From Phycisphaerae bacterium (GTDB taxonomy: Bacteria; Planctomycetota; Phycisphaerae; Sedimentisphaerales; Anaerobacaceae): 64,000 bases of DNA. The notes beneath the pieces were generated by a model. It saw only the letters and a program-made list of their open reading frames with translations. It did no database searches and was not told the origin of the DNA. The stretch lies in NCBI GenBank assembly GCA_028714255.1, contig JAQTMR010000001.1, positions 248,001-312,000 of the forward strand, in the 5' to 3' direction. Made by a program: the position numbers and the translations under genes. Positions 22,233-57,127 of the stretch are shown piece after piece; the stretch's first letter is position 1, and each line of letters begins with the position of its first letter.

Positions 22233-22330
22233 TTGCGCAGTGCTGCCGGAGGCCGGTACGAGGAAACATACAGTTAGTATGCCAAAGGCATATAAGAAAA
22301 AAGCGTCCGAGCAGAAGGCAGCACAAGCAA
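22233..22330 (+). repeat. Palindromic element, copy A (diverged)
   Basis: This is a 98-base segment bounded by TTGC...GTGCTGCC and GGCAGCAC...GCAA, so its ends pair into a long stem. Inside it resembles copies B (24362) and C (57024, minus): a Shine-Dalgarno-like ACGAGGAAACAT block, an AGTAT motif, an AAGAAAAAA tract and a CCGAGCAG block near the 3' arm. The identity to B and C is partial. It lies just beyond the 3' end of the methyltransferase gene. A short frame across it was not accepted as a gene. Confidence 0.55.
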
Positions 22331-22370
22331 AGACTTGGTCAGATGAAGTAGTAGCTATTACATATTACAG

Positions 22371-22394
22371 GCAACAACTATTGCCGGTTGTTGC
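22371..22394. terminator. Hairpin at the 3' end of the methyltransferase gene
   Basis: GCAACAAC (22371-22378) and GTTGTTGC (22387-22394) form a perfect 8-bp stem with an eight-base loop. It lies just past the methyltransferase stop (22402), in the correct place for a minus-strand terminator. There is no long U-tract, so termination is uncertain. Confidence 0.45.
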
Positions 22395-22401
22395 GTCTGA
22401 T

Positions 22402-23481
22402 TTATTCTGATATTATTAAGACCTCTTTTGAATTTCCATTACTTAAAACGTATTTGTAATCCAGCTTTTTGACATCGACAGATTGTTTAATTTCTGCCAA
22501 CATATTTACCAGTTCTGAAATTGTCGGAGTACCATCATCCCTATAAGAGACAACCAAAATGGAATCCCTGAATTTATCAAACAGCTTTTGAAATGCCTGA
22601 TGGATTTCGCCTTTATTACACCACTCATTTCTCCCGTTTTTAATCTTCCTGTGTTTCGAATTATAATCAATCAAGCCAAGCCACTGGTCATAAGAAACGA
22701 TACCTTCCAAGAAATGATAAAAATCAAAATAGTTTACCCCAACGCCTTTTGCGGAAATGTATGGAGTATCAATATAAACAAGGTCAGGCTTTGGAACATC
22801 TAAGTCAGATATATCGGAATGAAACGCACGATTTTTTTCACCATTATCAAATACGGCATCATTTGCTTCTTTTGCAAATTTAATAAAATGATTTTCAAAA
22901 GCGGCATCCCATGTTTTTTTATTTCCAAAACTTCTTTCTACATCGGCAGTCCTGATGTAAAGGTTTTTCCTATGAAAAAGGTTATATGGCCTTTTGATTA
23001 TACATGCCTGAAATAAAGCATAATAGGCAAGGGCTTGCTTATAATTATCACGGATATATTTTATGTTCGTTATTACATAATCCAGCCATTGGTTTTCATC
23101 GTCAGTAAAATATATATCGTGGAAGGTATCATAAATGAACGTAGGATACTTGATGTTATTATGCTTAGCCAAAATGAAGTCAATATCCTCATCTTCGAGA
23201 ATAGTATGGGAGTTTTCAATCAGGGCAAGTCCAATATAATAATTAAATTTCAATGAGTCATTATATGACACCTGCTTACCCTTTTTTTTGAACATGTAGC
23301 CCACACTGCCGGTTCCGCCAAAAGCGTCAAGTACAGAATTAAATCTTAAATCTCTGGTGTAGTAATCAATCCATTTAAGAATTTTATATTTGCTGCCCTG
23401 ATAGCGGGTTGATGGTAAAACGCCCTCCTTATCAATAGATAATCTGTCGGAAAATTGCAATTGTTGCTGCGTGTTAACCAT
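22402..23481 (-). CDS. DNA adenine-N6 methyltransferase, D12 class (type II modification)
   Basis: This 359-residue enzyme transfers a methyl group from S-adenosylmethionine to adenine in DNA. The order of motifs fits the D12/alpha class. RYQGSKYKILKW near residue 23 replaces the usual WxGGK motif X, DAFGGTGSVGYMF is the SAM-binding motif I, and the catalytic motif IV reads DTPY rather than DPPY. The gene starts three bases after the restriction endonuclease stop, so the two form an operon. As its partner is EcoRV-like, it probably protects GATATC, which is inferred, not seen. Base composition is AT-rich compared with aroA or pyrB, suggesting transfer. Confidence 0.9.
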   Translation of the reverse strand: MVNTQQQLQFSDRLSIDKEGVLPSTRYQGSKYKILKWIDYYTRDLRFNSVLDAFGGTGSVGYMFKKKGKQVSYNDSLKFNYYIGLALIENSHTILEDEDIDFILAKHNNIKYPTFIYDTFHDIYFTDDENQWLDYVITNIKYIRDNYKQALAYYALFQACIIKRPYNLFHRKNLYIRTADVERSFGNKKTWDAAFENHFIKFAKEANDAVFDNGEKNRAFHSDISDLDVPKPDLVYIDTPYISAKGVGVNYFDFYHFLEGIVSYDQWLGLIDYNSKHRKIKNGRNEWCNKGEIHQAFQKLFDKFRDSILVVSYRDDGTPTISELVNMLAEIKQSVDVKKLDYKYVLSNGNSKEVLIISE

Positions 23482-23484
23482 ATA

Positions 23485-24270
23485 TTAAAGGTTTTGGATA
23501 TTCCTATATTCCAAATATTCTTTGAGATTGGTATAAGGCGGTTTACTTAATTTTGCGCTTAGGGCCATTTCCAAAGTCATATATTTCATCCAATAATCGT
23601 CAAATACTTTTACTCCAAGTTTGGAAAACGGTCCAGCCCCTTGCTTCAACTCGCTAATTTTAACACAAGAACCAATATTTTTAGTATTTCCACTGCCGGG
23701 CCTGTCTTTGGCGATTTTGAATTTCTCCTGAACAATAAAATCAAAGTCCTTGATTACTGATAATATATCTTCCAAATCTTCTATTGTGTATATTCTGTTT
23801 TCGTCAATCAACCCTTCCTGCCGGGTATAAATAATACCCAAGATGTAATGTTTGGAATATTCCTGGTACGGAAAGGTAATGTTCTTTTTTGAGTCACGGA
23901 ATCTAAAATAACCCGTAAAAGCCCCGAGCGTAAAACCAGATACAGCCTCATCGTTTTTCCTATATGTGCTTTTCAAATCCAGAGAGATTTTATGTTTTTC
24001 TTTTGTTATAAAAGTTATGTCAGGATAATGGTTTTGCTCGGTACAAAAAATCATTTCATACTTATTTTCTTCCGCGAACTTCTTAATGACTGGAAACATC
24101 ATTAACTCTATTATCTTTGAAACCACTTTTGTGTCCACGGAGATTGTATAAATATTTTTTGCAATATCGATAAAACCTTTTACAGACCAATCGCCTGAAG
24201 GCGTAGCTAAAACTTCTTTAAAGTTGTCAGCATGCTTAAGTAAACTTTTCTGGAAGCTGTCTAAAGCCAT
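23485..24270 (-). CDS. EcoRV-family type II restriction endonuclease
   Basis: The 261-residue product aligns by eye along most of EcoRV. Shared blocks include SVDTKV, QNHYPDITF, LDLKSTY, GFTLGAFTGYFRF, KNITFPYQEY, GSGNTKNIGS and DYWMKY. The active-site residues correspond to Asp84, Asp98 and Lys100 (Asp74, Asp90 and Lys92 in EcoRV). EcoRV cuts GATATC to give blunt ends; the same target is likely because the recognition-loop GSGNT is kept. It is transcribed before the methyltransferase from a promoter at about 24310-24337. Expressing the nuclease first is the less common order and implies some control. Confidence 0.92.
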   Translation of the reverse strand: MALDSFQKSLLKHADNFKEVLATPSGDWSVKGFIDIAKNIYTISVDTKVVSKIIELMMFPVIKKFAEENKYEMIFCTEQNHYPDITFITKEKHKISLDLKSTYRKNDEAVSGFTLGAFTGYFRFRDSKKNITFPYQEYSKHYILGIIYTRQEGLIDENRIYTIEDLEDILSVIKDFDFIVQEKFKIAKDRPGSGNTKNIGSCVKISELKQGAGPFSKLGVKVFDDYWMKYMTLEMALSAKLSKPPYTNLKEYLEYRNIQNL

Positions 24271-24308
24271 ATTTATTGGTTATCTTTCTACAAAAGGCAA
24301 CTAAGATT

Positions 24309-24337
24309 ATAGTAACGTCTTTTACAACGATTGTCAA
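24309..24337 (-). promoter_or_regulatory. Putative promoter of the restriction-modification operon
   Basis: On the minus strand TTGACA (24332-24337) is followed after 17 bases by TACTAT (24309-24314). A TATAAT (24306-24311) overlaps but would need a 20-base spacer. It lies between palindromic element B and the endonuclease start. Confidence 0.5.
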
Positions 24338-24361
24338 TTATGCAAAATGAATGGTGTCTCG

Positions 24362-24467
24362 GTTGCTGTTACTCCCGGAAGCCAGAATTAGAGGCATCTG
24401 TATTATGCAATCCCTAAGGGACGAAGTAATATGAGAATAATGGCCGAACTGGAGGACGCAACAGCAA
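24362..24467 (+). repeat. Palindromic element, copy B
   Basis: This 106-base element begins GTTGCTGTT and ends AACAGCAA, forming an 8-bp terminal stem. TCC/GGA and CCAG/CTGG can extend the stem inward. Its last 26 bases (24442-24467) are identical to the corresponding end of copy C (57024-57049, other strand), and a CGAAGTAA block is also shared. It lies directly upstream of the restriction-modification promoter, so copies A and B bracket that gene pair. Confidence 0.8.
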
Positions 24468-24509
24468 GTTAGTCAATAGTCGCTGGTCGTTAGTTGATAG
24501 TTGAAGGAA

Positions 24510-24530
24510 CCCACCGGATAAACCGGTGGG
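24510..24530. repeat. 8-bp hairpin CCCACCGG/CCGGTGGG
   Basis: This is a perfect inverted repeat with a five-base ATAAA loop, set in non-coding DNA beside element B. It may be a dispersed repeat unit or a terminator-like hairpin. Confidence 0.45.
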
Positions 24531-24603
24531 CTAACCGAAAAGCATACTGGCGAGACCGCCAAAAACTTCTTTTAATCCCTCGAAATTTCTGGTAAGAATA
24601 CAG

Positions 24604-24631
24604 CCACAGAGTACACAGAGGTCACAGAGAT
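24604..24631. repeat. Dispersed CACAGAG-type motif
   Basis: The segment CCACAGAGTACACAGAGGTC and its continuation read, on the minus strand, like the CTCTGCGTCCTCCGCGTCC motif found at about 57138 and 57621. These are copies of one low-copy repeat family in non-coding DNA. Confidence 0.4.
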
Positions 24632-25398: not shown

Positions 25399-26676
25399 AT
25401 GAAATTGATTGCAAGGAAATCACGTTTAAGAGGTGAAGTATCGATTCCCGGCTCGAAGTCCCACACCATCCGGGCCGTGGCAATCGCCTCTTTAGCTGAC
25501 GGTAACAGCAGTATCCGCAGGCCTTTAGCTTCGAGCGACACTCAATCCGCGGTCAACTGCTACCGCTCGTTAGGCGCAAAGATTGACACGGCTGATGCCG
25601 AGTGCTGGAAGGTCGCCGGCACCGCCGGTCGAGTAACGGCCCCTGCGGGAGTTATCGACGTAGGTAATTCCGGCACGACGCTGCGCGTAGCGATGGGTTC
25701 AGCGGCGCTGGCCGAGGCCGGCCAAAAGACAACATTTACCGGCGACGAACAAACACAGACTCGAACCATCGGGCCTTTAATGGAAGCACTAAACAGTTTA
25801 GGGGCGAAATGCAAATCCATTAAGAATAACGGCAAGGCACCGGTCGAGATAACGGGCCAAATCACGGGCGGCAGGGCCTCTATCGCGGCAGTGACCAGTC
25901 AATATCTATCCAGTCTGCTACTGTGTGCGCCTTTGGCGGCGGGAAATTCCGAAATAGATGTTACGCTGTTAAATGAGCCGGGGTACGTGCAGATGACGCT
26001 TGATTGGCTCGACAAGCAGGGAATCGAATACGAAAACGAGAATATGCAGCGTTTCAAAATCAAAGGCGGGCAAAGATATAAAAGTTTCGACGCGGCAATC
26101 GCCGCTGATTTTTCCAGCGCGACGTTCTTTCTCTGCGGCGGCGCGTTGTGCGGCGAAGATGTAAGTTTGCTCGGTCTGGATTTTTCGGACAGCCAGCCTG
26201 ACAAGGCGGTGGTCGATTATCTAAAGATGATGGGAGCCGATATCAGTATCGAGCCGGGGGCGGTAAGAATCAGGGCTTCTGCGCTTAAGGGCGCGGAGAT
26301 AGATATGAACGCAACGCCTGATGCGCTGCCCGCGATGGCGGTTACGGCGGCCTTTGCACAGGGCCAAACCCGCCTGGTGAATGTCGCTCAGGCACGGACC
26401 AAAGAAACCGACCGGATAAGCGCGATGGCATGTGAGCTGAAAAAACTGGGCGTAAGTGTTGAAGAATTCGCTGACGGGCTTATAATAGAGGGCGGTGCAC
26501 CCAAGCCAGCGGAGCTGCACGGCTGGGCAGACCATCGGATTGTAATGGCACTATCGCTGGCAGGTCTGAAGCTGGATGGCCAGTGCGTTATTGATACCGC
26601 TGAGGCGATGAGCGTGACGTTCCCCGATTACGCAGGATTGATGAAGAGCGTCGGTGCGAATATAGAGGTGAAATAA
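25399..26676 (+). CDS. aroA: 3-phosphoshikimate 1-carboxyvinyltransferase (EPSP synthase)
   Basis: The 425-residue product joins phosphoenolpyruvate to shikimate-3-phosphate, the sixth step of the shikimate pathway. It has the family start SIPGSKSHTIRAVAIASLADG, the VGNSGTTLRV loop (about residues 90-99) and the late LRxKETDRI-type block TKETDRISAMACELKKLG. It ends with the DHRIVMALSLAGL motif. Length is typical. The next gene, aroC, starts 12 bases downstream, so the last two shikimate steps are co-transcribed. Confidence 0.96.
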   Translation: MKLIARKSRLRGEVSIPGSKSHTIRAVAIASLADGNSSIRRPLASSDTQSAVNCYRSLGAKIDTADAECWKVAGTAGRVTAPAGVIDVGNSGTTLRVAMGSAALAEAGQKTTFTGDEQTQTRTIGPLMEALNSLGAKCKSIKNNGKAPVEITGQITGGRASIAAVTSQYLSSLLLCAPLAAGNSEIDVTLLNEPGYVQMTLDWLDKQGIEYENENMQRFKIKGGQRYKSFDAAIAADFSSATFFLCGGALCGEDVSLLGLDFSDSQPDKAVVDYLKMMGADISIEPGAVRIRASALKGAEIDMNATPDALPAMAVTAAFAQGQTRLVNVAQARTKETDRISAMACELKKLGVSVEEFADGLIIEGGAPKPAELHGWADHRIVMALSLAGLKLDGQCVIDTAEAMSVTFPDYAGLMKSVGANIEVK

Positions 26677-55939: not shown

Positions 55940-57103
55940 TTATATGCATTTTACTTTTTTACATAGATTCATTAATATTTCAAAAATAAATGTTTCTAAG
56001 TTATTTCTGATATCACATATATATTTTTCGCCATCAATTAAATCAAAATTAGTATTTATTTTCCCATTGTATCTTAAAATAGATCTGCCGAGGACATCAA
56101 AAATTTCGTGTGCTTCTACTTCAGAGTCTTTATTTGTTTTAAACCTGCTAGACTTTTGTCTTTGTCCGCCAATTACTGGTATATCTTCAAGCCAAATTAG
56201 AATTGATTTACCTTTCGTAGGCAACCTAGGGATACCAACAATAACCGTATTTTCTTTTTTACCACCCGAATTTTCTCTCAAGTTATATTTTGAATGTGCG
56301 GAAATCATAATATAATGAGTTGTAGAATCTCTTCTTGTCTTGAGGTCGTCAATCCAAGAATTTTCCGCATTTTCAATTAGTTTAGATAACTCTTTAAATC
56401 CAGTTTTATCCCTTGTTATTTTATGAATCCCAGAAAGACTATGACATTGTTCACTTCCTTTCAGAAAAGAAGATGTAAACCTTGCAGTAACATCGAAAAG
56501 GCTTGCTACTGTGGACAGATATGATTCAAATTCATTTTCAACCTTTAAATCTCTTAGAGATAGTTCAAAAGACTCTTCGTTGACTTTAAAGAATTTCTTT
56601 TTTTTATTTTTTTCCTTCTTCATGGATTTTATGGCATTTTCAAGATTTTTCTTATGAGCACCTACAACATTTAGCCATTCTTCATAACGATAAAGAGAAC
56701 CAAGATATTTTCTTTTTAAGGTACCCAATCTACTTAAATATTCATTGATATCTATGACAATGTTTGGATTTGATACACTGTTTCTTGGTATTAGTTGATC
56801 AAAAATCAAATCAATCCTAGATGCTGACTCAAGATATTTTGCATAAGACTCTTTATCGATTTTAGGAGGAGTAAATATTATTTCTTCCGGTCTACAAACC
56901 ATAATTATTTGCTTATACCCGTATAATGTAATAATAGACAACACAATACTTATGGCACAGGTGATTATGGCATAAGTCCGGACTGATTTTATGTCGGCAT
57001 TGTGGTAATAGCAACAAGAAATTTTGCTGTTGCGTCCTCCAGTTCGGCCCTCTTTTTTATTTACTTCGGGCCTTCGCCCCTGTGTAATACTAATGTTCCT
57101 CAT
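55940..57103 (-). CDS. HEPN-like membrane protein with start inside repeat element C
   Basis: The 387-residue frame starts at ATG 57103, inside palindromic element C; residues 1 to about 27 are encoded by that element. No better start was found before the transmembrane helix (about residues 44-63). A charged helical region (about 85-250) leads to RDSTTH (Arg258 to His263), which matches the Rx4H catalytic motif of HEPN RNases. A further 120-residue domain follows. The gene is strongly AT-rich compared with neighbours. HEPN domains occur in toxins and anti-phage effectors, but no partner antitoxin is visible here. Function is inferred only. Confidence 0.55.
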   Translation of the reverse strand: MRNISITQGRRPEVNKKEGRTGGRNSKISCCYYHNADIKSVRTYAIITCAISIVLSIITLYGYKQIIMVCRPEEIIFTPPKIDKESYAKYLESASRIDLIFDQLIPRNSVSNPNIVIDINEYLSRLGTLKRKYLGSLYRYEEWLNVVGAHKKNLENAIKSMKKEKNKKKKFFKVNEESFELSLRDLKVENEFESYLSTVASLFDVTARFTSSFLKGSEQCHSLSGIHKITRDKTGFKELSKLIENAENSWIDDLKTRRDSTTHYIMISAHSKYNLRENSGGKKENTVIVGIPRLPTKGKSILIWLEDIPVIGGQRQKSSRFKTNKDSEVEAHEIFDVLGRSILRYNGKINTNFDLIDGEKYICDIRNNLETFIFEILMNLCKKVKCI

Positions 57104-57127
57104 CCTGCCTACGGAAACAACAGCAAC
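57024..57127 (-). repeat. Palindromic element, copy C
   Basis: Read on the minus strand, this 104-base element begins GTTGCTGTT and ends AACAGCAA. Its last 26 bases are identical to copy B (24442-24467), and the terminal inverted repeat and CGAAGTAA block are shared. It contains the predicted start codon and first codons of the HEPN-like gene. Confidence 0.8.

Follow-up and report, generated by a model that had tools for sequence, protein, structure and literature searches.

Two copies of a roughly 100-nt palindromic element lie on either side of an EcoRV-like restriction-modification (R-M) gene pair in a planctomycete genome, raising the question of whether the element acts as a landing or recombination site for defence genes, as an earlier note had proposed, or came to lie there independently of the genes that it flanks. 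The stretch analysed, hereafter the window, comprises 64,000 nt (G000:C1:248001-312000) of a 2.41-Mb planctomycete MAG in 39 contigs, and contains, in addition to the flanking copies A and B, a third copy, C. The features discussed below are collected in Table 1.

Table 1. Elements, genes and associated sequence features in the window
Feature	Position	Strand	Evidence and remarks
Element A	22234-22330	+	A-subfamily copy of the ~100-nt hairpin repeat; R1 covariance model, 71.9 bits
D12-class N6-adenine DNA methyltransferase (EcoRV-type M)	22402-23481	-	PF02086, 1.8e-15
EcoRV-like restriction endonuclease	23485-24270	-	PF09233, 3.3e-95
Sigma-70-like promoter match TTGACA-17-TACTAT	24309-24337	-	Consensus scan; between B and the REase gene, outside B
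Element B	24363-24467	+	B-subfamily copy; R1 covariance model, 93.5 bits
Short palindrome AACCCACCGGATAAACCGGTGGGCTAACC	24508-24536	+	Resembles the GGGGGCTAAC-type REPs flanking RAYT genes of G000
Promoter-like leader	56902-57024	-	Abuts C; nhmmer and BLAST matches
Element C	57024-57126	-	B-subfamily copy, upstream of gene 55940-57103; R1 covariance model, 101.8 bits

The three copies had been placed correctly to within 1-2 bases, the terminal inverted arms ascribed to them do pair in A, B and C, and the 26-base block GGCCGAACTGGAGGACGCAACAGCAA reported to be shared by B and C is identical in both; a 24-mer from this block occurs twice in the window, while shuffled sequences are expected to contain none. 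Element A lies 72 bp past the stop codon of the methyltransferase gene, and B precedes the start of the REase gene by 93 bp. The repeat falls into two main subfamilies, with B and C in one and A in the other: A and B are 49% identical, and B and C 74%, while A reaches 76-81% identity to its closest other copies and B does not exceed 80% identity to any other genomic copy across its full length (BLAST). The caveat in the earlier note that A is a diverged copy, which weakens the bracketing on that side, turned out to be decisive, as members of different subfamilies do not form a matched pair that moved the R-M genes between them. The placement of C at the start of a HEPN-like gene stands as far as position is concerned, since C immediately precedes gene 55940-57103, but the HEPN assignment comes down to a single RX4H motif, and this gene yielded no Pfam match.

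The promoter-like leader adjoining C is common to other accessory genes in the genus, as seen with nhmmer and BLAST. This leader, AAATTTCTTGTTGCTCTTACCACAACACCAGCATAAAATCAGT, ~60 bp long, is found ahead of accessory genes that are unrelated to one another, in the window, at L100:4962-5067, L095:7709-7822 and L104:7282-7322, and near position 1500 of L199, L200, L222 and L223. At the dxr flank it occupies the same site in G001 (L222) and G002 (L223), but the genes behind it differ, a hint that genes are exchanged downstream of a promoter that stays in place.

Copies were counted with a covariance model (R1) built from 13 copies, combined with BLAST. The genome and its relatives contain further copies, and A, B and C belong to one interspersed repeat of ~97-118 nt. 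There are about 30 copies in G000, seven in each of the congeners G001 and G002, five, three and three in representatives of other genera (G003, G013 and G023, respectively); G045 and G046 gave one match each, and the remaining ~70 relative genomes searched gave no match. A scan of genome_contigs with the A-subfamily pattern returned planctomycete MAGs only, and a phage vehicle was rejected because the repeat patterns had no matches in any of the IMG/VR viral contigs scanned; identity with a known RNA family was likewise rejected, as an Rfam search of the window returned none. The copies reside between genes, in co-directional, divergent and convergent gaps alike, and in either orientation relative to the genes. 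At about 12 loci, the orthologous stretches in G001 or G002 are devoid of copies and often carry different genes instead, indicating that the copy positions are not ancestral; congeners differ in both copy number and position. The repeat is an uncatalogued structured interspersed hairpin family in Planctomycetota, limited to a few related planctomycetes.

Two peculiar arrangements of copies deserve mention. Three copies at L062:5027-8476 form a tandem array with a spacing of ~1.67 kb, each unit of the duplication comprising one copy and a paralogous gene for a secreted protein. Another repeat family, TTGGTTCGACARGCTCACCAC, interrupts element copies at L109:4983-5103, L118:3092-3218 and L101:5203-5289; the insertion point is shared by two copies from different genomes and differs in the third copy, which suggests that this family targets the ~100-nt hairpin.

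The fold energy of element A is below that of all 200 shuffles (z -3.72), element C gives a z-score of -2.4, and element B taken alone is unremarkable (z -1.0). Covarying arms, expected of a genuine hairpin family, are indeed present: pairing in both the outer stem and the apical hairpin is preserved by compensatory changes across the 13 copies, with a covariation score of 0.281 versus 0.106 in shuffles (0/500) and no more than 0.133 with slid partners. In a structure-free alignment, 27 double-changed cells were counted versus 9.7 in shuffles, and the compensatory changes extend to a set of 54 distinct copies, with 103 such cells versus 35. Much of this signal lies between the subfamilies, and it does not reflect one inherited event, since the apical hairpin makes use of several pair types per position. 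As judged from these base-pairing patterns, the repeat is maintained as a foldable hairpin. It consists of a 14-bp outer stem, asymmetric inner loops and an apical hairpin that is variable yet complementary, with a B-type consensus of TTGCTGTTGYTTCCGGAAGCCGGAATGAGGA...hairpin...GGCCGAACTGGAGGACRCAACAGCAA and an A-type consensus of TGCGCRGTGCTGCC...GGCAGCACAAGCAA; the internal, mostly unpaired blocks GAGGAAAC and CCGARC are among its most conserved parts.

The identities previously given to the two genes between A and B are borne out by Pfam (EcoRV, PF09233; D12, PF02086), and the adjacency of an EcoRV-family REase and an adenine methyltransferase qualifies them as a type II R-M system. Full-length homologs of the REase are present in three other genera at 55-60% amino acid identity, and the EcoRV-like R-M relatives in G011, G017 and G031 are not accompanied by the element. 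The possibility that B supplies a promoter was rejected, as the best match lies outside B and promoter-like matches in the region are no commoner than in its shuffles.

Comparison with congeners shows that both flanks of the R-M interval are conserved, with 79% nucleotide identity on the protease side and 81-82% for aroC. At the orthologous interval, G001 has two other ORFs and no elements, and G002 has an A-type element beside a RusA-like gene and no R-M genes. The sequence following the short palindrome recurs ahead of aroA in G002 and, over part of its length, in G001, and the G002 element is positioned ~25-35 bp from sequence homologous to window positions 24494-24604. The search for an empty site thus yielded a one-copy counterpart without R-M genes, but the copy in question is not the ortholog of A: its nearest match is the G000 copy at C1:104k (90%), and it hence represents a separate insertion. 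No base-exact empty site was found among the congeners; the closest genomes are ~79% identical in coding DNA, a distance at which such sites are not obtainable, so that recent mobility of the copies is inferred rather than seen directly. The aroA gene of the window (25399-26676) is 34-35% identical in amino acid sequence to the syntenic aroA of both congeners, with the adjacent aroC and protease genes ~80% DNA-identical, and is likely a xenologous replacement.

The flanks of 44 full copies provided no better target duplications than shuffled flanks, with one 8-nt case. Composite transposition by A and B was rejected in view of their low identity and the absence of target duplications, and the two copies probably landed at the R-M locus independently of each other.

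Non-defence neighbours were found at ~17 of 24 independent G000 loci, and include ordinary genes such as nusA, ffh, trpS and mnmA (names read from sequence), as well as secreted or tandem paralogs. Among the defence-type genes beside copies in G000 are three type II R-M systems, namely EcoRV, AccI (L103; PF09545, 1.5e-115) and MvaI/BcnI (L107; PF15515, with an N4/N6 methyltransferase and an HTH protein), together with SocA/Panacea (L098), HEPN_Cthe2314 (L100) and DUF5131 (L102) modules, the partner of the last being presumably of the three-Cys-motif type. In the congeners, a D12 R-M system with a weak SacI match (G002 L115) and a DndC-like gene (G001 L113) adjoin copies as well. The distance to the copy is no more than ~140 bp for the EcoRV, AccI, MvaI/BcnI and G002 D12 systems, and three of the four sampled R-M systems, one toxin-antitoxin module and one HEPN-family gene lie within 0.5 kb of copies. 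At five defence-type modules, the copy precedes the first start codon by ~90-140 bp, a placement somewhat unlikely to arise by pure chance. An HsdM-like (type I R-M) gene, so named from its sequence only, is found at L177 (G002:C370) 341-1900, in the same intergenic hotspot that harbours MvaI/BcnI at L107 (G000:C4).

For controls, we used 400 kb of sampled element-free stretches, ignoring one weak 26.7-bit model match, and 15 loci of another repeat. The former contained one type IIG R-M system and nothing related to the other modules, and the latter one solitary methyltransferase; PADLOC tallies alone are hard to interpret as system counts, as many methyltransferase models match each protein. 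The enrichment of R-M systems near copies relative to the element-free sample gave p 0.016 with inclusion of the window that prompted the question and 0.065 without it, and locus-level tests against the other repeat family gave p 0.10-0.13. Of the supposed enrichment beside accessory genes, what stands is that several defence-type modules adjoin copies, but the p values are nominal and most neighbours are ordinary. The enrichment can be explained without a dedicated mechanism, since elements and R-M genes both occupy intervals that vary between congeners.

If the repeat served as homology or as a target at which defence and accessory genes integrate, the A - R-M - B order would be its product, and the proximity of three unrelated type II systems in G000 and of the G002 D12 system to copies, the solitary type IIG system in the element-free sample, the nominal p values with and without the window, and the one-copy counterpart lacking R-M genes in G002 are all in line with this idea. 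We nevertheless consider it improbable, given that A and B are too dissimilar and belong to different subfamilies, the G002 copy is not the ortholog of A, target duplications are absent, the difference from another repeat family is not significant, most G000 loci have non-defence neighbours, EcoRV-like R-M genes occur elsewhere without the element, and congener hotspots hold other accessory genes, such as the HsdM-like gene at L177, in the absence of any element. It is very doubtful that the hairpin serves as a site of recombination or ssDNA integration through which individual defence modules (several unrelated R-M, toxin-antitoxin and HEPN genes) enter intergenic hotspots of this planctomycete genus, in an integron-like capture that would operate without a known integrase. 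Integron attC sites with gene cassettes resemble the repeat in that they, too, are imperfectly palindromic, comparable in length (~100 nt) and adjacent to accessory genes, but the arms, as read from the sequences, have no GTTRRRY/RYYYAAC core sites, and no integron integrase scored above cut-off in any of 13 genomes (the best partial match in G000 is 88 versus 265 bits); on these two grounds the attC interpretation was rejected, and its probability is negligible. A functional cis-RNA, be it a terminator, an attenuator, or a processing or stability hairpin carried along with genes, would account for the compensatory changes, the stable hairpins and the presence of a copy upstream of every gene in the tandem paralog array, but is very unlikely in light of the occupancy of divergent gaps, the use of either orientation relative to genes, the positional differences between congeners, and the lack of an Rfam family.

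Mobile repeats provide closer parallels. REPINs and REPs associated with RAYTs (PMC3116915, PMC3733652, PMC2817692) share with our repeat a ~100-nt hairpin unit that has conserved ends in inverted orientation and shows compensatory changes; they also resemble it in the absence of target duplication, and G000 encodes five Y1_Tnp (RAYT) proteins. That the repeat is a REPIN or REP of one of these Y1 transposases, as its size and inverted arms might suggest (PMC3116915), is still unlikely: the RAYT genes examined are flanked by different short REPs, GTTTAGCCCCC / GGGGGCTAAC, the sole element copy near a RAYT is 1.2 kb away, paired short REP halves are not obvious, and ~30 copies compare with the usual >100 REPs per genome (PMC2817692). 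The flanks of the three RAYT genes recovered from G000 had no element matches, all five RAYT loci having been motif-scanned, and RAYT REP identity was rejected because these flanks carry different REPs. Short REPs of the GTTTAGCCCCC / GGGGGCTAAC type flank the RAYT genes at L030, L033 and L034, and often adjoin the ~100-nt element. A DDE transposase near the element in G002 L116 was dismissed as a mobilizer, as it has its own inverted ends.

The bacterial MITEs ERIC, RU-3 and RUP (PMC2229807, PMC2759123) are, like our repeat, non-coding, intergenic and shorter than 200 bp, occur in tens of copies, and form a long stem-loop by 5'-3' pairing of terminal inverted repeats. In contrast to them, the repeat has TTGC/GCAA ends instead of TA termini, is ~50% GC (0.39-0.63 in individual copies) rather than A+T-rich, shows no target duplication, is unrelated in sequence, and belongs to a planctomycete lineage. 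We classify it as a new small palindromic interspersed repeat family, which fits the ERIC/MITE or REPIN definition only in part. The description of the element as a MITE/REP-like unit is upheld to the extent that it is a multi-copy, structured repeat.

A, B and C probably represent a hairpin repeat that is lineage-restricted, non-coding and non-autonomous, neither carries nor targets R-M genes, and is best read as an ERIC/REPIN-like element whose copies accumulate in those variable intergenic sites where defence genes are found too. Its dispersal may have proceeded through single-strand (hairpin) transposition, or through copying, by a mobilizer acting in trans, a route with which the absence of target duplications is compatible. 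Two copies from different subfamilies would have ended up independently in one fast-turning-over interval between the protease gene and aroA, which would also have taken up the R-M genes, and the element may incidentally affect transcript ends.

These findings add to Planctomycetota a family of structured hairpin repeats, interspersed and so far uncatalogued, and illustrate how a repeat residing in hypervariable intergenic intervals can easily be mistaken for a defence-gene boundary. Should the borderline R-M enrichment hold true in same-species genomes, this would suggest that compact defence modules enter chromosomes by an unknown route.
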